Shown here: positions 526 through 42,767 of the stretch, in pieces
Layout: each line of letters starts with the position of its first letter
How positions within the stretch are numbered: the stretch's first letter is position 1
From: Gallionella sp.
Lineage (GTDB): Bacteria; Pseudomonadota; Gammaproteobacteria; Burkholderiales; Gallionellaceae
Assembly: GCA_030653355.1 (NCBI GenBank)
Contig: JAURZN010000052.1
Location: forward strand, 1-42,955
Direction of reading: 5' to 3'
Length of the DNA: 42,955 nt
Notes under the pieces: generated by a model
What the model was told of the DNA's origin: nothing
The model's database searches: none
What the model saw: only the letters and a program-made list of their open reading frames with translations
Program-made: the position numbers and the translations under genes

Positions 526-3270
526 GTGCGTAAATCACTGTTGAAACAAGCAGCCCTTCGATCAGGCGGACTCACACCTTCAGATAGCCCAAGACTCATG
601 CTGAAAATACTGAGTGTAGCCGTGGGTCTGACGCTGGGCACTCTGGCACATGCCGTGGGTCTGGGCGGCATCAATGTGGTTTCTGCGCTGGGTCAGCCGC
701 TGAAAGCTGAAATCGAACTGCTCGCAGTCAGCAAGTCGGACAAGCCCAGCCTGGTTGCGCGTCTCGCTTCACCCGACGCCTATAAGGGCGTAGGTCTGGA
801 ATATCCCTACGGCGTTAAATACAGTTTTCAGGTTGAAAGTCGTGCGAATGGCGCGACCTACCTCAAGTTAAGCAGCAATCAGGAAATCAATGACCCTTTT
901 GTCAGCTTGCTGGTTGAGTTGTCATGGTCGTCGGGCAGATTAATGCGCGAATATACTTTTCTGCTCGACCCGCCCGGCTATGTTGCGGCCCAACCCGCGC
1001 CTGAAACAGTGCAAACTGTCTTGCCGGCAGTGGTGTCGCCTGTCAGGCTGACGGCGATTCCCAAGAGCTTGGAAGAGGCTAAGCCGGTTGCCAGGTTTGT
1101 TGAACAGTCTGTTGAGCGACCCGTTGAGAAACGGGTCGTTGCCGCACCCGCTCGGGCTGAAAAAGCCAGCGTGGAGACGGGTGAAATTACCGTTCAACGC
1201 GGCGACACCTTGAATAAAATTGCTGCGCGCAGCAAACCGGACGACGTCAGTCTGGAGCGCATGCTGGTCGCGCTGTATCGTGCCAATGATGATCAGTTTG
1301 ACGGCAAAAATATGAACCGCATTCAATCCGGGAAAATCCTGCGCATGCCGGATCAGGATGAAGTGATGAATGTGGCTCAGTCTGAGGCGGTTCAGGAAAT
1401 ACGCGCTCAGTCAGCTGACTGGAACGCTTATCGCCAGAAGCTCGCCGCAGCGGCTGCAACAAGCCGCCAGAATGAAACAAGCCGGCAAGTTGCTACCGGA
1501 AAAATCAGCGGTTCGGCTACCGATAAAACACCGGTGACTCATGAATCAGCCAAGGAAGTGTTGCGTTTATCCAAGGGCGAATTGCCCGGAGACAAGGCGG
1601 GCGCAGCAGGCCGTGCTGCACAGGACAAACGTAATTCCGCCGAAGAAGACGCGATTGCAAAAAGCAAGGCTGTCGAAGAAGGCAAGGCACGCGCTGCGTT
1701 ACTGGAAAGCAACCTAAAGAACATTGAGCGTCTGGCACAGCTAAAAGCTGAGGCTGCGGCGCTGGTTGCGGCCGCGTCTGTGGAAGGTGCCGCCTCTTCG
1801 GTTGCCAGTGAAGTTGCAGCAGCCAGTGAAGTCGCGACGGTAAGCGCGGTTGAATCTGCACCCACAGTGGCCGAAGAGCCTGCATTGCTGGATCAGTTGC
1901 TGGCTTCTCCGCTCGTAATGGGTATAGGCGCGGCTGTGCTGCTTGCGCTGGGCGGTTTGGGTATTGCGCTTGGTCGTCGCAAGCAGTTGCCGGCGAAGGC
2001 CGCTGAAGCTGTTGATACTGAGGGTGCGAAAACAGGCCATTTAACCAGTCCGGTTGCGCCTTCTCCCGATACCGGCGACTTTACGGTGCTCGCCGGTCAG
2101 GCAGAAGAGACTCCGCTACAGCCCGAGGATATTGATCCGATTAGTGAAGCCGAACTGTTCCTGAATTTTGGCCGCGATGAACAGGCAGAAGAGGTATTGA
2201 AAGACGCGATATTGCGTACGCCTGACAACCATCAGTTACATTTGAAATTGTTGGGTATTTACGCTAATCGTAAGGATGCGGCCGCCTTCTCGGTTGTCGC
2301 TATGCAGTTACATGGCACTGGAGATGCCGACGCGATGCGGCAGGCTGCTGAAATGGGCAGGAAGCTGGATCCGGATAATCCGCTGTATGCCGAAGACGGC
2401 TCCGAAAAAACTGTTGCCGAGGAGGTTGTTTCTGAAGAATCCGGCGTGGAACAGGCCGGTGATGAAGAAGCGAGTATTGAAGAAGCGGGCAGTGCTACCC
2501 TGTTGAGCCCCTCGTTCGGCGTGGAGGAGGCGCTTGCCGCACCTGAAGAGCTGTCTTCGGCCGACGAAGAGGTGGCGGACTTGCAAGCTGCGGAGCACAC
2601 GCCGGATCAGGCGGGTACGATAGATTTCGATGTAACTGCCGCGCCCGTTGAACAAACGGCTGCAGTTGATTTTGAAGTGACAGCCATGCCAGAAATTACC
2701 GAGCAGGTAGAATCGGTCGATTTCGATGTGACCTCCACCCTGCCTTTGTCAGGCGCAGCCGAGGAATTGGATATGGATGTCTCCGGGAAGGAAACGGAGA
2801 TAGCTGAAGTTGAACAGCAGGAAGTGGCATTGCCGAGCCTTGATGATTTGATTTTTGATGTCACACCCGTCTCAGAAGTCCAGAAAGAAGCCAAGGCCGA
2901 GACCGCCAGCACGGAAAACGAAGGCGGCATGGAATTTATGCTGGACTTCCCGATGGATGACATAGCAGAAACTCCGGCCTCACCTCCTCAGGTTATTGAT
3001 CTGGCTGATATCAGTCTGGATATGGATGATGCAGTCGAAGCTGCCGGCAAACCTGTGGCAGAGGTTGCAGCCGGCACGCCGACAGCAGAGGTTAAGCCGG
3101 TTGAGAGGAGTGAGCAATGGCATGAGGTCACCACCAAACTGGATCTGGCAAGAGCGTATCAGGAGATGGGCGATGCGGTAGGCGCGCGTGAAATTCTCGA
3201 TGAAGTTGTGCTGGAAGGTGATGAGGCGCAACAGCGTGAGGCGCAGTTAATTATCAGCCAGTTGGGATAA
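526..3270 (+). CDS. fimV: FimV-like polar hub / peptidoglycan-binding protein
   Basis: A 914-residue inner-membrane protein of the FimV family, which organises type IV pilus/twitching machinery and polar complexes. In order: a signal sequence ending in LAHA near residue 43; the conserved FimV N-terminal domain (from GLGGINVVSALGQPLKAE, ~45-150); a LysM domain (~219-275, from VQRGDTLNKIA); an Ala/Lys/Glu-rich, probably coiled-coil stretch (~290-440); one membrane helix (~457-482); a TPR-like part (~540-615); a long acidic region with three near repeats of the type [IV]DF[DE]VT (~700-745); and the short conserved FimV C-terminal domain (LDLARAYQEMGD, ~868-912). The GTG at 526 has GAGG nine bases upstream. 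ATG 598 would also give a normal signal peptide but lacks a visible ribosome binding site. The gene ends in a strong terminator. Confidence 0.9.
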   Translation: MRKSLLKQAALRSGGLTPSDSPRLMLKILSVAVGLTLGTLAHAVGLGGINVVSALGQPLKAEIELLAVSKSDKPSLVARLASPDAYKGVGLEYPYGVKYSFQVESRANGATYLKLSSNQEINDPFVSLLVELSWSSGRLMREYTFLLDPPGYVAAQPAPETVQTVLPAVVSPVRLTAIPKSLEEAKPVARFVEQSVERPVEKRVVAAPARAEKASVETGEITVQRGDTLNKIAARSKPDDVSLERMLVALYRANDDQFDGKNMNRIQSGKILRMPDQDEVMNVAQSEAVQEIRAQSADWNAYRQKLAAAAATSRQNETSRQVATGKISGSATDKTPVTHESAKEVLRLSKGELPGDKAGAAGRAAQDKRNSAEEDAIAKSKAVEEGKARAALLESNLKNIERLAQLKAEAAALVAAASVEGAASSVASEVAAASEVATVSAVESAPTVAEEPALLDQLLASPLVMGIGAAVLLALGGLGIALGRRKQLPAKAAEAVDTEGAKTGHLTSPVAPSPDTGDFTVLAGQAEETPLQPEDIDPISEAELFLNFGRDEQAEEVLKDAILRTPDNHQLHLKLLGIYANRKDAAAFSVVAMQLHGTGDADAMRQAAEMGRKLDPDNPLYAEDGSEKTVAEEVVSEESGVEQAGDEEASIEEAGSATLLSPSFGVEEALAAPEELSSADEEVADLQAAEHTPDQAGTIDFDVTAAPVEQTAAVDFEVTAMPEITEQVESVDFDVTSTLPLSGAAEELDMDVSGKETEIAEVEQQEVALPSLDDLIFDVTPVSEVQKEAKAETASTENEGGMEFMLDFPMDDIAETPASPPQVIDLADISLDMDDAVEAAGKPVAEVAAGTPTAEVKPVERSEQWHEVTTKLDLARAYQEMGDAVGAREILDEVVLEGDEAQQREAQLIISQLG

Positions 3271-11063: not shown

Positions 11064-12590
11064 ATGTGCGGCATTCTCGGAGTGGTCTCATATACGCCAG
11101 CTAACCAGCTTTTATATGACGGCTTGCAGGTATTACAGCATCGAGGCCAGGATGCCGCCGGAATTGCGACCATGGATGGCGATACCATCCATCTGCATAA
11201 AGGCAACGGCCTGGTGCGCGATGTATTTCGCACCCGTAACATGCGCGCCTTGCAGGGCAATACGGGTATTGCACATGTGCGTTATCCGACCGCCGGTTCC
11301 GCAGTGGATCACAATGAAGCGCAACCCTTTTATGTAAATTCACCGTTCGGCATCGTGCTCGGACACAACGGCAATCTGACCAACGCCGAAGAACTCAAGA
11401 AACAGCTGTTCGTGCAGGATTTGCGCCACGTCAATACCAACTCTGACTCGGAAGTGCTGCTGAATGTGCTGGCGCATGAGTTGCAGGCTAAATGCAAAGG
11501 CTTGCGCCTGGATACGGAGACTATTTTCTCCGCTGTTTCCAGCGTACACCAGCGCTGTCGCGGTGCATATGCGGTGGTGGCGATTATTGCCGGTTATGGC
11601 TTGCTGGCGTTTCGCGATAGTCACGGCATACGCCCGCTGGTCATCGGCGTAAACGAAACCGAATCAGGCACGGAATATCTGATCGCTTCAGAAGGCGTTG
11701 CATTGGATACGCTGGGCTTCAAATTCATGCGCGACATCGCGCCTGGCGAAGCCGTATTTGTGGACTTCGATGGACAGCTGCACAGCAAGCAGTGCAGCGA
11801 TAACCCCGTGTTAAATCCGTGCATATTCGAATATGTTTATTTTGCCCGCCCGGATTCGGTGATGGATGGCGTGTCAGTGTATGAGTCGCGTCTGTATATG
11901 GGCGAGTATCTGGCCGACAAGCTGGCACGCACCTGGCCGGAGATAGCCATCGACGTGGTCATCCCGATTCCCGATTCCAGTCGCCCCAGTGCACTGCAAC
12001 TGGCGAATCATCTGAACATTCCATTCCGCGAAGGTTTTGTAAAGAATCGTTATATCGGACGTACCTTTATCATGCCGGGACAGGCGCTGCGCAAAAAATC
12101 AGTGCGTCAGAAGTTGAATGCCATCGGTGTCGAATTCAAGGGCAAGAACGTATTGCTGGTGGACGATTCCATCGTGCGTGGCACCACCAGTCGCGAGATC
12201 GTGCAAATGGCCCGGGATGCGGGGGCGCTGAAGGTGTATTTCGCCTCCGCAGCACCGCCGGTACGTTATCCCAATGTATATGGCATCGATATGCCCAGCC
12301 GTGCCGAATTGATCGCAACGGGGCGCAGCGATGAAGAAATCTGCCGCGAAATCGGCGCGGATGCATTGATTTATCAGGATCTGGAAGATTTGAAGGCGGC
12401 CGTTCGCAAGGCTAATCCTGAAATCATGGATTATGAGTCTTCCTGTTTTGACGGAATTTACATTACCGGTGACATTACACCGGCGTATCTGGACAAGATC
12501 GAGCAGGGGCGTGCGGGCGGCAAGGCAAACAAAGTTGTCGATGATGATCAGATGGAACTGGAACTGGCAATGAGTGCCACTTCGATGTGA
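11064..12590 (+). CDS. purF: Amidophosphoribosyltransferase
   Basis: PurF catalyses the first committed step of purine synthesis, PRPP plus glutamine to phosphoribosylamine. The protein starts [10 protein letters not shown], so Cys2 becomes the N-terminal nucleophile of the glutaminase domain; [10 protein letters not shown] and [12 protein letters not shown] follow. The C-terminal phosphoribosyltransferase domain has the PRPP loop [14 protein letters not shown] (~362-375) and [10 protein letters not shown]. At 508 residues it has the usual length. AGGAAA at 11052-11057 precedes the ATG. The pathway partner purL is also in this window, ~10 kb downstream. Confidence 0.97.
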
Positions 12591-35412: not shown

Positions 35413-36357
35413 ATGTCTGAACAGAATTGGGAACGCGGCGTGCTGGAGAAACTGGCGATGTCGGCGGTACAGGAGCAGCGTCGCGCGCGGCACTGGAGTA
35501 TTTTTTTCAAGGTGCTGACTTTCGGCTACCTGTTCATCATGCTGTTCATCTTTATGGGCTGGTTCGACAAGAGCGAAGCGGCATTGAGTGCCGGCAAGCA
35601 TACCGCGCTGGTGGATATGCAGGGCGTGATTGCGGCGGATAGCGTGGCGAGTGCCGATAATCTGATTCCCAGTCTGCAGGAAGCGTTTCAGGACAAGGGG
35701 ACGCAAGGGGTGATCCTGCGTATCAACAGCCCCGGCGGCAGTCCGGTGCAGGCCGGGCAAATCAACGATGAGATACGTCGCTTGCGCGCCAAGTACCCGG
35801 CGATTCCATTGTATGTGGTGGTCGAGGATATTTGCGCGTCCGGCGGCTATTACGTGGCGGCGGCGGCGGACAAGATTTTTGTCGACAAGGCCAGCCTGAT
35901 CGGTTCCATCGGTGTGTTGATGGATGGTTTCGGCTTTACCGGAACGATGGAGAAGCTGGGCGTGGAACGTCGGCTGGTTACCGCCGGTTCCAACAAGGGC
36001 TTCATGGATCCGTTCTCGACGGTACGTCCCGAGCAGCAGGAATATGCCAAACAGATGCTGGGTCAGATACACCAACAGTTCATCGATGTGGTCAGGCAGG
36101 GGCGCGGCAAGCGTCTCAAGGAAACGCCGGATACCTTCAGCGGTCTGGTGTGGAATGGTCAGGCGGGTGTGGCTATGGGTCTGGCAGATGGTTACGGCAG
36201 CGTGGAATCGGTGGCGCGTGATGTCATCAAGGCCGAGCATATCGTTGACTTTACCGTCAAGGAAGGATTCGCGGACAGGCTGGCGAAGCGCTTTGGCGCG
36301 GGCGTGGCGAGTGCGATCAGCTTTTCAACACAGAGCGGATTGGCGCTGCGTTATTAA
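35413..36357 (+). CDS. sppA: Signal peptide peptidase SppA-type (S49) serine protease
   Basis: A 314-residue short-form S49 peptidase with one membrane helix (~31-50) and a periplasmic catalytic domain. The Ser nucleophile is S143 in EDICASGGYYVAAAAD and the general-base Lys is probably K194 in GSNKGFMDPF, a spacing like that of Bacillus SppA. INSPGGSPVQAG is the conserved binding loop. Members degrade leftover signal peptides and other membrane peptides. TAAGGAAG precedes ATG 35413. Confidence 0.9.
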   Translation: MSEQNWERGVLEKLAMSAVQEQRRARHWSIFFKVLTFGYLFIMLFIFMGWFDKSEAALSAGKHTALVDMQGVIAADSVASADNLIPSLQEAFQDKGTQGVILRINSPGGSPVQAGQINDEIRRLRAKYPAIPLYVVVEDICASGGYYVAAAADKIFVDKASLIGSIGVLMDGFGFTGTMEKLGVERRLVTAGSNKGFMDPFSTVRPEQQEYAKQMLGQIHQQFIDVVRQGRGKRLKETPDTFSGLVWNGQAGVAMGLADGYGSVESVARDVIKAEHIVDFTVKEGFADRLAKRFGAGVASAISFSTQSGLALRY

Positions 36358-36384: not shown

Positions 36385-38895
36385 GTGAACGCTACCGATA
36401 CGGACGGTCTGAGCACAGCGCAGGCACAACTGCGCCTCGCCGAGTCCGGCTACAACGAGCTGGCCCCGCCGCGCTCACGGCGATGGCACACGATAACCGC
36501 CGAGATGCTGCACGAACCGATATTCCTGTTGCTGCTTGCTGCAGGCGGTATTTACCTGTTGCTGGGCGCAGTCTCTGATGCGCTGATGCTGCTGGGTTTC
36601 GTCGCGATTATTATCGGCATGACGGTGTTTCAGGCGTACAAGAGCGAACGGGTGCTGGAAGCCTTGCGCGACTTGTCCAGCCCTCGCGCAAAGGTGATGC
36701 GCGATGGCCGTCAGCAACGCATCGCCGGACGCGAAGTGGTGCCCGGCGACTTGCTGCTGCTCAGTGAAGGCGACAGGGTTGCGGCGGACGCCGTGCTGCT
36801 CAGTTGCAACGATCTGTTTGCCGATGAATCCCTGCTGACCGGCGAATCCGTCCCGGTGCGCAAACAGCCCGGTGGCGCGGACTCGACAGTACGGGAGCCG
36901 GGCGGTGATGACCAGCCTTTCGTCTATGCCGGCACGGTGCTGGTGCAGGGCAGTGGCATCGGTCGGGTCACCGCCACTGGGCGCGCAAGCGCACTCGGAC
37001 AGATAGGTCAGTCGCTGCAAGACACGCAAGGCGGCACCTCGCCGTTGCGCATCCAGACAGGCGTGCTGGTGCGCCGTCTGGTATTCATCGCGGCAGTGCT
37101 GTGCCTGACTCTGGTACTGATCTACGGTTACACGCACGGCCACTGGCTGAACGCGCTGCTGGCCGGAATCACTCTGGCGATGTCCACTCTGCCGGAAGAA
37201 TTCCCGGTAATCCTGTCGATATTCATGTCGCTGGGCGCCTGGCGCATCTCAAGGCGCCATGTGCTGACGCGGCGGCTGGATGCGATCGAGACGCTGGGCG
37301 CCACCACCGTGCTGTGTACCGACAAAACCGGCACATTGACCGAAAATCGCATGGTGATACGTAAGCTGTATGGCGACGGTCAGATGCTGGATGTGCATGA
37401 CCTGAACGCGCTGCCGGAACCCTGGCACGAACTGGTCGAATTCGGAATTTTAGCCAGCGAGCGCGAACCGTTCGACCCGATGGAACGTGCGCTGCATGAA
37501 CTCGGGCAACGCACCCTCACGGGCAGCGAACATCTGCATGACGAATGGCAGATCGTGCACGAATACAGTCTGTCTCCCGAGATGCTGGCGATGTCGCATG
37601 TCTGGCAGAGCGATGATCAGCCGCATCACAGCGTGGCCGCCAAGGGTGCGCCGGAAGCGATCATCGACCTGTGCCATCTGCCCGAAGAGCAGGCGCAGGC
37701 TATCGGACAGATCGCCGCAGAAATGGCCGGTCAGGGCTTGCGCGTATTGGGTGTGGCGCGCGCCATGCTGCTGCCGGGCGAGTCGTGGCCGGAACGGCAG
37801 CACGACATTGAATTCTCCTTCGTCGGTCTGCTCGGATTGCAGGACCCGCTGCGCGCCGATGTAAAAGAGGCCATAGAACAGTGTCACGCCGCCGGCATTC
37901 GCGTGGTGATGATCACTGGCGACCACGTTCGTACTGCACAGGCCATTGCACGCGAACTTGGCCTGCCGGCGAATCGGGTGTTGAGCGGGGCTGAGCTGGA
38001 CACGCTTTCCGATGCGGTGTTGCGCGCCCGGCTGCGCGAGGTGCAGGTGTTTGCGCGTATCGTGCCGCAACAGAAGCTGCGTCTGGTGGAAGCCTTCAAG
38101 GCCAATGGCGAAATCGTCGCGATGACCGGCGACGGCGTGAATGACGCACCCGCGCTGAAGGCGGCACACATCGGCGTCGCGATGGGCAGTCGCGGTACCG
38201 ATGTCGCGCGTGAAGCGGCCGGCCTGGTGTTGCTTAAGGACGACTTTGCCTCGCTGGTCGCCACGGTGCGGCTGGGGCGGCGAATCTACGACAACCTGCG
38301 CCGTGCGATGAGCTATGTGCTGGCGGTGCATCTGCCGATAGTCGCAATGGTAATGTTCCCCGTTCTGCTGGGCGAGCCGCTATTGTTGATGCCGGCTCAT
38401 ATCATGTTTCTGGAACTGGTCATCGGCCCCGCCTGCTCGATCTTCTTCGAAGCCGAACCCGAAGAAGCCAACATCATGCAGCGCCCGCCCAGGGCGGCGA
38501 ACGAAGTTTTGTTCGGCGGCAGGCAACTGGCATTCAGCCTGCTGCAGGGCGGCATCGCCGTCTGTGTCACCGTCGCGATCTATCTGTGGGCACGTTCGGC
38601 AGGCCATGACGATGACACCGTGCGTGCGCTGGTGTTCACGGCTATGGTGGCAGGCAACATCGCGCTGGTATTCGGCAACCGGACACAAAACGCGCCCGAA
38701 CTGGAAAAAAATCCGACGCTGCGCTGGATATTGCTGGGTACCGGCGGCGGACTGGCGCTGGTGCTCAGTATCCCGGTGTTGCGCGAACTGTTCCATTTCT
38801 CGGGTAGCCTGCCGCTGATGTTGTTCGCCGGTCTGCTCGCGGCGGGCAGCGTGTATCTGCTGGTCATGGCGGTGAAACCGGCCACGCGCGCATAA
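36385..38895 (+). CDS. Cation-translocating P-type ATPase
   Basis: An 836-residue P-type ATPase. It has the cation-ATPase N-terminal region, two helices (~45-82), the actuator domain with TGES (152-155), a membrane pair with the ion-site motif PEEFP (270-274), the phosphorylation site DKTGTLT with D313, KGAPE in the nucleotide domain and TGDGVNDAPALK in the hinge, then about six C-terminal helices. The order fits the P2 group (Ca2+ or other divalent cations). PEEFP replaces PEGLP of the sarcoplasmic type, so the transported ion is uncertain. The start is GTG 36385, 27 bases after the previous stop. Confidence 0.93.
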   Translation: MNATDTDGLSTAQAQLRLAESGYNELAPPRSRRWHTITAEMLHEPIFLLLLAAGGIYLLLGAVSDALMLLGFVAIIIGMTVFQAYKSERVLEALRDLSSPRAKVMRDGRQQRIAGREVVPGDLLLLSEGDRVAADAVLLSCNDLFADESLLTGESVPVRKQPGGADSTVREPGGDDQPFVYAGTVLVQGSGIGRVTATGRASALGQIGQSLQDTQGGTSPLRIQTGVLVRRLVFIAAVLCLTLVLIYGYTHGHWLNALLAGITLAMSTLPEEFPVILSIFMSLGAWRISRRHVLTRRLDAIETLGATTVLCTDKTGTLTENRMVIRKLYGDGQMLDVHDLNALPEPWHELVEFGILASEREPFDPMERALHELGQRTLTGSEHLHDEWQIVHEYSLSPEMLAMSHVWQSDDQPHHSVAAKGAPEAIIDLCHLPEEQAQAIGQIAAEMAGQGLRVLGVARAMLLPGESWPERQHDIEFSFVGLLGLQDPLRADVKEAIEQCHAAGIRVVMITGDHVRTAQAIARELGLPANRVLSGAELDTLSDAVLRARLREVQVFARIVPQQKLRLVEAFKANGEIVAMTGDGVNDAPALKAAHIGVAMGSRGTDVAREAAGLVLLKDDFASLVATVRLGRRIYDNLRRAMSYVLAVHLPIVAMVMFPVLLGEPLLLMPAHIMFLELVIGPACSIFFEAEPEEANIMQRPPRAANEVLFGGRQLAFSLLQGGIAVCVTVAIYLWARSAGHDDDTVRALVFTAMVAGNIALVFGNRTQNAPELEKNPTLRWILLGTGGGLALVLSIPVLRELFHFSGSLPLMLFAGLLAAGSVYLLVMAVKPATRA

Positions 38896-39182: not shown

Positions 39183-39219
39183 TTGAAATCACTCCAATAA
39201 TGGTATATTTTCTATGCCA
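39183..39219 (+). promoter_or_regulatory. Promoter and possible operator of the BrnT/BrnA pair
   Basis: TTGAAA (39183-39188) and TATTTT (39206-39211) are 17 bases apart. The -10 lies within an imperfect palindrome TGGTATA-TTTTC-TATGCCA (39201-39219) that could be an autorepressor site. The expected transcript start falls at or next to the toxin ATG at 39219. Confidence 0.55.
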
Positions 39220-39482
39220 TGCGTATTTTTGAATTTGATGATTCAAAGAGTCAGGCGAATCTTTCCAAGCACGGGATCAATTTTATTGATGCACAGTTGC
39301 TATGGGACGATCCGAGACTATTGGAAATCCCGGCAAAAACCGAAGACGAGCCACGTTTTCTGGTAATCGGGCTTATCAATGTGAAGTACTGGTCAGCCGT
39401 TCTTACCTATCGGGGTGAAAATATCCGGCTTATTTCTGTTCGTCGATCACGAACTGAGGAGGTAACACTATATGAAAGCTAA
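39219..39482 (+). CDS. brnT: BrnT-family toxin
   Basis: An 87-residue protein with the BrnT pattern: FEFDDSKSQANLSKHGINF near the start (the DxxKxxxNxxKHGxxF signature), then LLWDDPRLLEI and IRLISVRRSRTEEV at the end. BrnT is a ribonuclease toxin with a RelE-like fold. The toxin-first order and the overlap of 11 bases with the next gene agree with known brnTA modules. The ATG has almost no leader after the predicted promoter. Confidence 0.87.
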   Translation: MRIFEFDDSKSQANLSKHGINFIDAQLLWDDPRLLEIPAKTEDEPRFLVIGLINVKYWSAVLTYRGENIRLISVRRSRTEEVTLYES

Positions 39483-39738
39483 TACATTCGACAACCAGTT
39501 TGATGAAGGTGCTGACATAACCGCATCTCTGGACTTATCCAAGGCAAAACGAGTGTTGTTGAATCCGAAACGCGTCAATGTCGATTTTCCTGCCTGGATG
39601 GTTGAATCTCTGGATAGAGAAGCCGGAAAACTCGGTATTACACGGCAGTCCATTATCAAGGTGTGGCTGGCCGAACGCCTGGAAGATTCAGCTTCTTCTA
39701 ACTCGCCGCTGAACCGGTCGCGCCGCATTGCGGCTTAA
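39472..39738 (+). CDS. BrnA/CopG-like antitoxin
   Basis: An 88-residue protein with a ribbon-helix-helix part: the strand RVNVDFPAWMVESLDREAGKL followed by GITRQSIIKVWLAERLED, split by a short turn. It would bind both its toxin and the operon operator. It overlaps the BrnT gene by 11 bases. The last ~12 residues (SPLNRSRRIAA) are encoded by the left arm and loop of a bulged palindrome, so the natural C-terminus may be shorter. Confidence 0.82.
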   Translation: MKANTFDNQFDEGADITASLDLSKAKRVLLNPKRVNVDFPAWMVESLDREAGKLGITRQSIIKVWLAERLEDSASSNSPLNRSRRIAA

Positions 39739-39770
39739 ACTCGATATACTCCGATACGGGCGCGCCGGTT
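39712..39770. repeat. Bulged inverted repeat at the end of the first TA pair
   Basis: AACCGG-T-CGCGCC (39712-39724) pairs with GGCGCGCCGGTT (39759-39770), leaving one bulged T and a 34-base loop that holds the antitoxin stop. The outer bases GCTGAAC and GTTAGCT only partly fit attC core boxes, so this is at best a degenerate attC. Confidence 0.45.
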
Positions 39771-39834
39771 AGCTTTACGTTGACCTCTCACACCAATAGG
39801 TGACAATAGGCACACATCGCAGTAAACTCGTCGT

Positions 39835-40128
39835 ATGAAACCATTTCGCTGGAATCCTGCTAAAAATGAGGCGCTGAAAGTTGGGCGTGGCATCTCGTTT
39901 GAGGTGATCGCACTTGCGATTGAGGCCGATGGTTTACTGGATGAATTACGCCACCCGAATATGGGGAAATATCCAAACCAGTCCGTTCTTGTCGTGGCGT
40001 TTGATAACTATGTTTACTTGGTGCCTTACGTTGAAGAGCCGGATCACTATTTTCTAAAAACAGTGATTCCAAGCAGGAAGGCCACCCGTGACTACTTGCT
40101 GAGGAGCAACCCTGATGAAAAAACTTGA
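39835..40128 (+). CDS. BrnT-like toxin of a second TA pair
   Basis: A 97-residue protein, MKPFRWNPAKNEALKVGRGI..., which resembles a widespread toxin family related to BrnT: WNPxKNexLK near the start, DELRHPNMGKYPNQ, and the end FLKTVIPSRKATRDYL. It probably acts on RNA, by family only. A weak promoter-like TTGACC (39780-39785) lies ~50 bases upstream. The antitoxin gene overlaps its end by 14 bases. Confidence 0.75.
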   Translation: MKPFRWNPAKNEALKVGRGISFEVIALAIEADGLLDELRHPNMGKYPNQSVLVVAFDNYVYLVPYVEEPDHYFLKTVIPSRKATRDYLLRSNPDEKT

Positions 40129-40438
40129 TGCATTTGAGAAAGAGCTTTTGGATGCCTACGAAAAGGGTGAACTCAAGTCCACCTCTCCGTCGAAAGCAAA
40201 ATTGGCAAAATTCAAAGCCGCCGCTACAGCTACTTTTATCAAAGAAAAGCGGGTCAACATTCGCCTGTCCACGCCCGACCTGATGGATATTCAAGCCCGT
40301 GCGCTCGAAGAAGGTATGCCATACCAGACATTGATCGCCAGCGTGCTTCACAAGTTTGTGTCCGGGCGGCTTGTAGAATCACCATCCAGCCTAACCCGAC
40401 ATTCAATCCGGACTCCGCAAAAGCGCGGAGCCGATTAA
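40115..40438 (+). CDS. CopG-like antitoxin of the second TA pair
   Basis: A 107-residue protein. The N-terminal half is acidic/helical (LDAFEKELLDAYEKGEL) and would bind the toxin. The C-terminal ribbon-helix-helix (KRVNIRLSTPDLMDIQARAL, EEGMPYQTLIASVLHKFVSG) would bind DNA. Related antitoxins end soon after GRLVE; here ~19 more residues (from SPSSLTRHSIRT) are read through an attC-like palindrome and stop within it. The toxin-first order matches the preceding pair. Confidence 0.75.
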   Translation: MKKLDAFEKELLDAYEKGELKSTSPSKAKLAKFKAAATATFIKEKRVNIRLSTPDLMDIQARALEEGMPYQTLIASVLHKFVSGRLVESPSSLTRHSIRTPQKRGAD

Positions 40439-40439
40439 T
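40389..40439. other. attC-like recombination site, interrupted by intron sequence
   Basis: GCCTAAC (40389-40395) fits the R'' core box RYYYAAC. Then ATT-C-AAT-C-CGG-A-CTCCGC (40401-40417) pairs with GCGGAG-CCG-ATT-AAT (40424-40439), leaving three single bulged bases on one side, the hallmark of attC hairpins. The matching R' box (GTTRRRY) is missing; intron-like sequence begins seven bases after the stem. Confidence 0.45.
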
Positions 40440-40446
40440 TTTACGT

Positions 40447-40525
40447 GTGTGCCGGGCATGGCACGTAACTATGTCGGTGAAAGTCCGGCAGCCAGGTTTT
40501 GCAGAGCCGAAGGCTAGCGGACCGA
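40447..40525 (+). mobile_element. Group II intron 5' end remnant
   Basis: GTGTGCCGGGCATGGCACGT opens with a GTGCC/GGCAC hairpin; next comes AACTATGTCGGTGAAAGTCC. This matches, position for position in layout, the intron 5' end at 42819. It breaks off into the repeat cluster at about 40525, so domain I is incomplete and no reverse transcriptase follows. Confidence 0.55.
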
Positions 40526-40808
40526 AATAGGCGAAATAGGGGACAGAAATAGCAGAAACGAAATAGGGGACAGACCAGACACAGAAATACAGAAATAGGG
40601 GACCCAGAAATAGGGGACCAGAAATAGGGGACAGACCACGGTTTTAATACAGAAATAGGGGACAGACCACGGTTTTCTAAGCTCTGCTAGGCTGCTCCCC
40701 TATCCCAGCAAACTGGTTGAAGGAAACCGTGGTCTGTCCCCGGTTTCCCCGATTGGGCCGCACAAACACGCACAGGAAGTTAATTTTGATGGTTTACAGG
40801 GGGCAAAA
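40526..40808. repeat. Cluster of GAAATAGGGGAC repeats with inverted partner
   Basis: Six copies of GAAATAGGGGAC start at 40533, 40560, 40592, 40607, 40621 and 40652. The last two continue into AGACCACGGTTTT. The reverse complement GAAACCGTGGTCTGTCCCC lies at 40723-40741, so the right part can form a long hairpin. The arrangement resembles REP/BIME clusters mobilised by REP-associated tyrosine transposases, none of which is seen here. No gene is seen up to 40808. Confidence 0.75.
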
Positions 40809-41783
40809 ATGAAAAAATGGTTCGTGTTTTTAGCAGTCATCACATTCTTGAGCGGCGCCTGCTTTGCACAAGACAAGCCGATGTCGAAGAAAGAGCAGCA
40901 GGCCAAGCAGAAGCAAACGAAGAAACAGCTCGCACCAATGGCTCTTGTCAAACAAGAGCCGAAGCAGCCGCCAGTTGTGATGTTTTCAATGGGTATGCTT
41001 GAAAGCGGACGCATTGATCCGGGATATATGGGCATCCCGGCTGCGGAAGCGATAGATGCAATAGAAAAGATAACTGGCGCTATGAAGGGTGAGTTTGAGT
41101 TAACCGCCGACTACAACGCTAGAGTATCTGAACTTTCAAGAAAGTTTTTGGGCGATTTTGGTGATGTTTTGGCTTTTACGGTTCCAGCCTCCAAGGGAAG
41201 AAAATATATCAATGGGCTGCAATACGAGTTCAATGCAGATACTGGTGATGTAAATTTATATGTGTTTCCCTCAGCAGAGTTGTACAACCGCAAATGGAAT
41301 GGAATCGGAGCGCCGGACTATGCCACCAATCCAATAGAAAGCCGGTGGATATATCAGTTTAAGTTAAGCACGAAGATTGATTTGAAGAGCACTTATCAGG
41401 GAAAAAATGCTTATGGTACGACTGTTTTGGTAGAAAAAACAATCATGTCAGAGCTTGGAATTGCAGCAAAAAACCTTTTTAATTCTAAAGATTACGTGTT
41501 TAAGAGTCAATTTAGGCTGGAAAACTCTCGGGCAGCGCAAGAATTGCCGGCGCTGAAGGTATTGATTGTTATGAAGTTGGCCGCTCCTCCCTTTGTTGCT
41601 TACAACTACAGCCATGTGGAGCCGAGGCATGACAACCCGGTCGATATTTCCGTTAATGAGAAATACTTGACGGGTAACGTGATTGGGATCGTCTTCTACT
41701 CTGGCCTGACAGGTGAAATATTCGCGCGGTTTCCAGAAACTTTTGGTAAGCCAGTGCCCGAAGATAAGCCGGTTAATCAGTGA
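40809..41783 (+). CDS. Exported protein of unknown function, partner of the TIR gene
   Basis: A 324-residue protein with a clear signal peptide (MKKWFVFLAVITFLSGACFA, cleaved near residue 20), so it is probably periplasmic. A Lys/Gln-rich linker (~22-50) precedes a domain without a family I recognise. Landmarks are GMLESGRIDPGYMGIPAAEA, a Glu/Phe-rich helical stretch (GEFELTADYNARVSELSRKF) and beta-rich segments. The C-terminus has NVIGIVFYSGLTGEIFARFP. It ends in GTGA, which is also the start of the TIR gene, so translation is coupled. Base composition is AT-richer than the housekeeping part, suggesting transfer. Confidence 0.8.
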   Translation: MKKWFVFLAVITFLSGACFAQDKPMSKKEQQAKQKQTKKQLAPMALVKQEPKQPPVVMFSMGMLESGRIDPGYMGIPAAEAIDAIEKITGAMKGEFELTADYNARVSELSRKFLGDFGDVLAFTVPASKGRKYINGLQYEFNADTGDVNLYVFPSAELYNRKWNGIGAPDYATNPIESRWIYQFKLSTKIDLKSTYQGKNAYGTTVLVEKTIMSELGIAAKNLFNSKDYVFKSQFRLENSRAAQELPALKVLIVMKLAAPPFVAYNYSHVEPRHDNPVDISVNEKYLTGNVIGIVFYSGLTGEIFARFPETFGKPVPEDKPVNQ

Positions 41784-42343
41784 GATTTGACGTGGCGGAC
41801 GATTTGGGAGCTTCAAAAAAGCGGATCGAGTTTTTCGTTTCCTATGCACATAGAAATCAGCAGCTTGCCGAGAATTTTATCGTAAAGCTTGTAGATCATC
41901 TACGCCCTTCGAAGGCATATGACTACAGACTTTGGATGGACTCTGGAATCATCCTCGGCGAGGAATGGGAAAAGCAAATCATTGAAGCAAGGGACAAATG
42001 CGATTTCGGTCTTCTCCTTGTCAGTCCAGCTTTTTTAGGGTCGAAGTTCATTGGTGAGAAAGAACTCCCTCATTTCGTTGGAAACAATCGCGCCCCTTCA
42101 ATTCCCGTCATGTTGCAGCCTGTCGATCTTGAACTTCACGATTTGAGGGGCTTGAAAGTGCTCCAGATATTTCGATTCACGGGCCTCCGCTTCAAGGAAC
42201 CACGTGCGTACGGAGAATGCAAGAGTAACGCAAGAGATGATTTTGTTCTCGCGCTATTCAGAGCCATCGAGGGAAAGCTCGCAGCAGCCTGCGAGCAAGA
42301 ACGGGGTCAGGTCTTGCAATCAAGCATCCAGCCTAACGAGTAA
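41780..42343 (+). CDS. TIR-domain protein
   Basis: A 187-residue protein that is almost entirely a TIR domain of the bacterial TIR_2 type. It shows the first strand IEFFVSYAHRNQQLAENF, DYRLWMDSGIILGEEWEKQI, CDFGLLLVSPAFLGSKF and then FIGEKELPHF, where E95 is the candidate catalytic Glu of NAD-cleaving TIRs. There is no sensor, transmembrane or second domain. Bacterial TIR proteins often act in anti-phage defence by depleting NAD or making cyclic ADP-ribose signals; that role is inferred here. The GTG start overlaps the previous stop as GTGA. The C-terminus (SIQPNE, stop) lies inside an attC-like site, as expected of a gene cassette. Confidence 0.85.
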   Translation: MRFDVADDLGASKKRIEFFVSYAHRNQQLAENFIVKLVDHLRPSKAYDYRLWMDSGIILGEEWEKQIIEARDKCDFGLLLVSPAFLGSKFIGEKELPHFVGNNRAPSIPVMLQPVDLELHDLRGLKVLQIFRFTGLRFKEPRAYGECKSNARDDFVLALFRAIEGKLAAACEQERGQVLQSSIQPNE

Positions 42344-42393
42344 GGTTAGGTCGTGATCGCGAAGCGAGCCACGATCTGAACCGTTTGTTGGAC
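42331..42393. other. attC-like integron recombination site
   Basis: R'' box GCCTAAC (42331-42337) and R' box GTTGGAC (42387-42393) fit RYYYAAC and GTTRRRY. Between them GGTTAGGTCGTG (42344-42355) pairs with CACGATCT-G-AACC (42370-42382) with one bulged G and one G-T pair. The tip can fold as TCGC-GAA-GCGA. The TIR stop codon (42341-42343) lies between R'' and the stem. The total of 63 bases is within the usual attC range. Confidence 0.58.
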
Positions 42394-42767
42394 GAGCCCA
42401 GCGATGCTGATGTGCATCTCGTTATGGAATATCTCTCTGACTGTGGCGGTGCAACCGGGGCGTGTTACTCGCTACACCCCAAAATCTACCGCTAAAAGTT
42501 ACCATTGCAGCAACCGATTGCGCTTAACCTGCCGTTTTAATGAATTTTCATTAAATTTCACCCTTTTGCAGGGCGAGTTTGTCCGCACCGGCCAGGCATG
42601 GCCGGTTAGGGAAGCGCTGATTTATTCGGTTTTGTCGTTGATGAAACTACTAGCCATTCTACTAAGCCACCATACAACGGTGGCAAGTGGCTGGTTATCC
42701 CGCGCATAAGTAGTGACTTTGCAATCGTTTTTTTGATTGCTTAGTCAATACTTAGTTGTTTCATCAG
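42394..42767. other. Non-coding stretch after the attC-like site
   Basis: I see no supported gene. Small hairpins occur: GCCACC/GGTGGC around 42668-42686, and GCAATC/GATTGC (42721-42740) with an internal T run. A 101-codon open frame here has no ribosome binding site or recognisable motif. Confidence 0.5.

Follow-up and report, generated by a model that had tools for sequence, protein, structure and literature searches.

The window, i.e. the whole stretch of DNA that was analysed, corresponds to the entire contig C175 (42,955 bases), which belongs to a draft genome of 2.6 Mb that is 89% complete and distributed over 224 contigs. Near the right end of the contig, after genes for a peptidase S49 and, as read by eye, an ATPase pump, lies a run of small genes. 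It includes a BrnT/BrnA toxin-antitoxin cassette, a second and diverged BrnT/BrnA-like pair, and two genes encoding a predicted exported protein and a stand-alone TIR-domain protein (Table 1). The ORFs of this last pair lie where the original prediction had placed them, and they are coupled, as it had described, by a GTGA overlap of stop and start codons. Beyond the TIR gene the contig ends after 0.6 kb, in which a single 101-aa ORF without Pfam or NCBIfam match was found. The contig terminates (42829-42955) within a stretch resembling the start of a group II intron, which follows a terminator-like hairpin and matches Rfam group-II-D1D4-4 with an E-value of 0.75. The Rfam search of the window detected nothing at the gathering threshold, with sub-threshold matches to group II introns and miRNAs only, and a promoter scan of the plus strand from 40380 to 42500 found no site.

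The GC content of the pair is 45-48%, compared with 53.6-62.6% in five other sampled genes of the window, as expected of acquired cargo. This argument is soft, because at third codon positions the pair (49-51% GC) differs little from an ordinary window gene at 526-3270 (54%).

Table 1. Position of the genes and sequence features near the right end of the contig.
Feature	Position	Strand	Basis or remark
Peptidase S49 gene	35413-36357		Pfam; left of the small-gene run
ATPase pump gene	36385-38895		By-eye reading; between peptidase S49 gene and small-gene run
BrnT gene	39219-39482	+	First toxin-antitoxin cassette; Pfam BrnT, E 3.4e-24
BrnA gene	39472-39738	+	First toxin-antitoxin cassette; NCBIfam BrnA, E 5.1e-34
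attC-A	39696-39784	+	End of first BrnT/BrnA cassette; R1 25 bits, E 6.3e-4
Diverged BrnT/BrnA-like pair	39835-40438	+	Second pair; both genes under Pfam gathering scores
attC-B	40389-40452	+	End of upstream cassette; R1 64.5 bits, E 1.5e-13
GTGTG-starting stretch like a group II intron 5' end	40444-40530	+	In attC-B R' box; by-eye reading, no Rfam match
REP-like repeat cluster (GGGGACAGACCACGGTTT, direct and inverted)	40523-40754		Just upstream of the exported-protein gene
Exported partner, 324 aa	40809-41783	+	Signal peptide residues 1-20; linker about 21-57; folded part 58-310
Signal peptide codons (MKKWFVFLAVITFLSGACFA, cut before Q)	40809-40868	+	Predicted from hydropathy and likeness to homologue cut site
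GTGA stop-start overlap	41780-41783	+	In-frame conservation in L030
TIR-domain protein, 187 aa, GTG start	41780-42343	+	TIR_2, ThsB, and SAVED_TIR matches
E95 codon of TIR	42062-42064	+	Glu at position of TIR-enzyme catalytic Glu
42-nt piece (REP-like GGGGTCAGGTCTTGCAAT and attC start)	42297-42338	+	Shared at 97.6% identity with a cassette end of C11 (L014)
attC-C	42331-42393	+	R'' GCCTAAC, R' GTTGGAC; contains TIR stop; last attC recognised before contig end
TIR stop codon TAA	42341-42343	+	Within attC-C

attC sites and the cassette array

The attC sites were searched with a covariance model, R1, built from eight sites of five genomes, namely the same-genus genomes G005, G007, G008, and G022, and the window's own genome (contig C11). 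In the stem of the model ten pairs show changes in both partners, compared with an average of 4.7 after shuffling, although the structure was derived from the same alignment. Across the whole contig, R1 ranked attC-B best and attC-A second best. Site attC-B is also identical at 54 of 58 positions to an attC of the array L018, and the end of the BrnA-like gene together with attC-B matches two places in that array at about 76%. The R' box of attC-B is damaged, with GTGTGCC in place of GTTRRRY, and the likeness to other attC sites ends at 40446, so that the cassette of the pair has a blurred 5' boundary. Three of the REP-like copies of GGGGACAGACCACGGTTT downstream of this box are located at 40626-40742, and two further contigs of the genome carry another four. 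Arrays of this kind are described in the available part of PMC7923331 as containing or adjoining group II introns, an insertion sequence, and BrnT/A genes.

Site attC-C was evaluated differently. R1, whose training set excludes the L022 sister of attC-C and which was built without sites of the attC-C type, matches only a 21-nt piece of it (minus strand 17.3 bits, E 0.046; plus strand 12.7 bits, E 0.61). By consensus and fold alone attC-C is weak, as the same filter admits three candidates on each strand of the 43 kb, and its single-strand fold has a z of -2.1. In the same-genus array L022 four attC sites follow the integrase gene, and the fourth of them (11354-11416) is identical to attC-C at 59 of 63 positions, with 95.5% identity over 67 nt. 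This near identity to an IntI-linked site, together with the two attC sites just upstream, shows that attC-C is a real attC, of a type other than that of R1. The sister site need not end its array, since a further R1 match (39.3 bits) is located at 13723-13795 of L022. The TIR stop codon falls inside attC-C, which agrees with the original observation of a stop codon within an attC-like palindrome; the ORF preceding the L022 sister site likewise stops within its attC, so that a stop codon in this position is not special. The 42-nt piece that overlaps the start of attC-C encodes the last codons of the window TIR ORF. Because this piece is common to the C11 cassette end, and the TIR of the second pair described below (L030) ends without it, the window TIR carries a borrowed tail of about 15 residues.

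Contig C11 possesses further cassettes adjoining chromosomal-type genes. The cluster with attC sites found there beside such genes (L014, 3160-4781) encodes, as read by eye, a ParE/RelE-type toxin-antitoxin pair and a 201-aa membrane-type protein. A full integron integrase is encoded in the same genome (G000:C111:321-1262), on a contig different from that of the array, and scores above the TIGR02249 cut-off; the IntI family search gave below-cut-off matches in 14 of 14 controls, and only matches above the cut-off were counted. As the two upstream attC sites end BrnT/BrnA-type cassettes and attC-C follows the TIR gene, the exported/TIR pair is, on this reading of the sequence, the last visible unit of an integron-type cassette array before the contig end.

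The exported protein and the TIR protein

The predicted signal peptide of the 324-aa protein consists of a hydrophobic segment within residues 1-23 with an x-x-A end (CFA before Q; TLA before Q in the L030 homologue). The linker that follows is rich in K, Q, and P and of low structural confidence. Beyond the signal peptide, a single segment of raised hydropathy was found (residues 246-264), which is mostly beta strand in the structure model. This model, made from an alignment of eight rows, is an alpha/beta protein with long strands (mean pLDDT 70, pTM 0.67). Foldseek found no PDB match of the model at E <= 0.001, and the best VIA-align match had a Z of 3.4 over 51 residues; the PDB rows were considered noise, which does not indicate a new fold. 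Pfam and NCBIfam gave no match above the cut-off, and PADLOC gave no match at all; side matches to Beta-Casp, Kdo, and fut_nucase in Pfam/NCBIfam were far under the cut-off and were dismissed. The protein weakly matches PHROG 13753 (E 2.3e-4), as do two of the eight members of alignment A5. The tblastn search of phage records gave no match for the exported protein or for three relatives of it. No conclusion was built on the weak PHROG match.

The 187-aa protein lacks a signal peptide by hydropathy. It had been described as a stand-alone TIR domain, and the TIR_2 family of Pfam bears this out (44.4 bits, gathering score 28, E 2.8e-11). In PADLOC the best match was ThsB (2.1e-7), followed by SAVED_TIR (9.6e-4), and in the PDB only 7uxr was matched, weakly (E 0.069; 0.26 with a profile). 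Residues E95 and S88 are invariant in all eight aligned TIRs (window, L030, and six others), and E95 aligns with a Glu of 7uxr that we take to be the catalytic one of that protein. The catalytic Glu on which the prediction had depended is thus kept, as judged by sequence alignment. The stretch EPRAYGECKS in the C-terminal part is identical in the window and L030 TIRs and absent in the other six. A structure model of the TIR from two rows was too poor to be of use (pLDDT 37). By analogy, the protein would be an NAD-cleaving or NAD-cyclising enzyme. Searched by tblastn, phage records gave no match for the TIR, and plasmid records gave matches in three, in which the neighbours were NB-ARC or restriction/AAA ATPase genes and not the exported partner. 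Among 100 relative genomes searched, three possess TIR relatives, all distant (27-34% identity), and none the exported protein.

The second pair and the wider exported family

The first lead to relatives of the exported protein was a weak relative in a plasmid record (Sphaerospermopsis, 26%), from which the two-row alignment A1 was made. The scan of a species-genome collection (84,980 genomes) with A1 yielded seven relatives among 93 candidate stretches. The closest was L030, from an uncultured betaproteobacterium; the other six belong to Geotalea, cyanobacteria (two near-identical copies), Sphingomonas, Rhizobiales, and Paludibacter, and at none of them was a TIR seen.

Locus L030 harbours both genes, in the same order and with the same GTGA overlap. 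The exported proteins of the window and L030 share 59.5% identity (55% over the whole length; dN 0.29, omega 0.13), and the TIR proteins 59.9% (dN 0.31, omega 0.11), the omega values being rough because dS is near saturation. The sequence comparison shows equal divergence of both genes and a low dN/dS. The motifs KGEFExTADYNAR and TYQGxNAYGxTVxVEK are common to the two exported proteins. At codon 52 the L030 TIR is interrupted by an in-frame stop, possibly an error of the draft genome; the partner ORF is open, and after the stop the TIR is 63% identical to that of the window, with no other decay. In the 9.8 kb covered at L030 no attC was detected with R1, but this model can miss other attC types and the contig ends about 0.3 kb past the TIR, so that the pair may lie in an integron there too. 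When 399 genomes of L030's order were scanned with the two close proteins, six genomes matched, among which the only close copy was L030's own (next best E 4.6e-9). This order is probably that of the window, since one match shares contig and coordinates with a genome from the scan of the window's order.

The wider family extends further. Among 399 genomes of the order, a profile of eight members detected it in 22, the window's own included, and among 297 of the Geotalea phylum in 2; the earlier two-row profile, run on 369 genomes of the class, had matched the window's own alone. Alignment A5 and a member from the order, L047, matched in hhalign with a probability of 96.5, linking the C-terminal parts. 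The family has a KGEFETT-type motif, and members read by eye possess an N-terminal hydrophobic segment. Peptide patterns detected close relatives in none of 39 stretches of genome contigs and gave nothing in viral contigs (exported protein 0/8, TIR 0/5, A1 0/600, A6 0/22).

When the window TIR was used as a phmmer query against 33 loci, the only TIRs detected were those of L030 and of the duplicate locus L037; the 29 other distinct places gave none. A single query can miss distant TIRs, and the flanks covered were about 1.5-8 kb long, shortened in places by the end of a contig (in L036, 0.3 kb downstream of the gene). Searching the genomes of the seven loci found with A1 gave a related TIR at E <= 0.001 in one of the seven, L030's own. 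The original prediction had named homologues of the exported protein that mostly lack TIR genes as evidence against itself. Such a pattern is not seen in the close subfamily (one of one with a TIR, L030) but is seen in the wide family (none of 29, within limited flanks), whose basic role is probably not tied to a TIR, as none was found beside its members. R1 likewise found no attC at 17 further loci and at L062, with the same proviso that the model can miss other types.

Some members show features of their own. At L062 (443-2037) a relative of the exported protein is followed 17 nt on by a 209-aa ORF with an RNSLVH motif, which resembles the Rx4-6H motif of HEPN proteins as given in the available part of PMC3710099. 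No match of this ORF was found in Pfam, PADLOC, or PHROGs, and its product is a possible alternative cytoplasmic partner. Exported-family proteins at L036 (4455-5768) and L049 (943-2121) have C-terminal extensions that look by eye like a TonB-type C-terminal domain; the extension-bearing member of L036 had no match in Pfam.

A possible defence role and comparison with known systems

The reading that we prefer, tentatively and at somewhat less than an even chance, is that the two genes together form a mobile conflict module, directed most likely against phages, within the cassette array of a chromosomal integron. Phages are taken as the likeliest target, since some integron cassettes are reported to act against them when expressed artificially (PMC12409362, available part). 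The TIR would be inactive until infection, and would then stop the cell by cleaving or cyclising NAD, while the GTGA overlap would keep its amount in step with the amount of the exported protein. The weakest step is the role of the exported protein, which would work at the envelope as a second arm. It might itself hinder phage entry; alternatively, its nascent or precursor form might hold the TIR inactive until export is disturbed. A periplasmic protein and a cytoplasmic TIR cannot touch, since their compartments differ. The relay from periplasmic sensing to the TIR that was initially proposed has no visible route, because segment 246-264 is mostly beta strand in the model and no membrane partner gene is adjacent. 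The TIR_2 domain with E95 and ThsB as its best PADLOC match, the attC sites on both sides of the pair, the upstream one damaged, the toxin-antitoxin cassettes, the integrase in the same genome, the rarity of both genes among relatives, and the recurrence of the pairing in a second betaproteobacterium speak for a conflict module. Against it, only one other pair was found, and the TIR of that pair has an in-frame stop; in addition, the plasmid TIRs have other neighbours, and no TIR was found beside members of the wide exported family.

The two genes could instead be independent passengers, a defence TIR and an unrelated envelope protein, which share a transcription unit and are co-inherited without acting jointly. 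The absence of a TIR beside the members of the wide exported family, the different compartments of the two proteins, and the report that several ORFs can share one cassette (PMC12409362, available part) agree with this. However, the pair, its order, and its in-frame GTGA overlap are kept in a second genome at about 60% identity with dS near saturation, and the divergence of both genes matches, so we consider this explanation rather unlikely. The 3' end of the TIR gene leads to another reading, in which a REP-like/attC piece has overwritten the end of the TIR cassette and its function is lost. The last TIR codons from a piece shared with another cassette end, the damaged R' box of the upstream attC, and the stop in the L030 copy point in this direction; nevertheless, the core of the window TIR is open and its dN/dS against L030 is low, and we hold such decay to be improbable.

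A toxin-antitoxin-like unit would consist of a TIR toxin that depletes NAD and a co-translated partner that keeps it harmless, as a precursor or via export. The neighbours in the array are two BrnT/BrnA-type cassettes, and toxin-antitoxin genes are described as typical of such arrays (PMC7923331, available part). The partner gene also comes first and is tightly coupled, and in L030 the TIR is stopped and the partner open, as expected if the toxin alone were lost. Yet the partner has a predicted signal peptide in both copies, and the L030 TIR shows no decay other than the stop; antitoxins, moreover, are normally cytoplasmic. This arrangement therefore seems very improbable. The least probable reading, a long shot, is an immune pair that reads secretion failure, in which the cytoplasmic precursor of the exported protein touches the TIR. 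A phage that collapses the membrane potential or blocks Sec would cause the precursor to pile up, and NAD cleavage would be released or triggered. The related exported proteins would then be a general family of export sensors set on different cytoplasmic killers, e.g. at L062.

Compared with known systems, the conflict module that we prefer is similar to Thoeris in its small TIR, in the Glu at the same position, in ThsB as the best PADLOC match, and in being a two-gene unit. Thoeris TIRs cleave or cyclise NAD (PMC12578639, available part). The pair differs from Thoeris, as no ThsA (SIR2-SLOG or Macro-TM) lies beside the TIR and the partner is exported and has no SIR2, SLOG, or Macro match. An assignment to Thoeris was rejected, because upstream of the TIR lie the gene of the exported protein and those of BrnT/A type, and downstream, up to the contig end, there is only the unmatched 101-aa ORF.

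Integron/CALIN arrays with toxin-antitoxin and defence cargo include the chromosomal integron of V. cholerae, a 'biobank'. The array in the window resembles such arrays in its attC sites, BrnT/A-type cassettes, compact two-gene unit, and integrase in the genome (PMC12409362, PMC7923331, available parts). It differs in the TIR and exported cargo, in the damaged upstream attC, and in the location of array and integrase on different contigs. TIR-domain proteins are also reported among the cassette cargo of plant-microbiome integrons, as predicted secreted effectors directed at the host (PMC11089894, available part), so that the presence of a TIR in a cassette is not in itself new. Both cases have a TIR in a cassette; here the partner, and not the TIR, has the signal peptide, and the available part of PMC11089894 makes no mention of a pair of TIR and exported protein. 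A search of titles and abstract beginnings in the open-licence literature also found no report of a cassette that combines a TIR gene with an exported partner; judged by this search, the novelty is the exported partner.

The KGEFETT-type exported family is alike in its N-terminal hydrophobic segment and C-terminal part, and differs in that no TIR was found beside its members at 29 places. Known TIR defence modules have cytoplasmic or membrane effectors. As far as its sequence indicates, the pair may be an undescribed two-part defence module; if this is true, a TIR coupled to an exported protein on an integron would be a new layout, a compact two-gene unit for envelope-linked immunity, and the nameless KGEFETT-type family would gain a first lead to its role.
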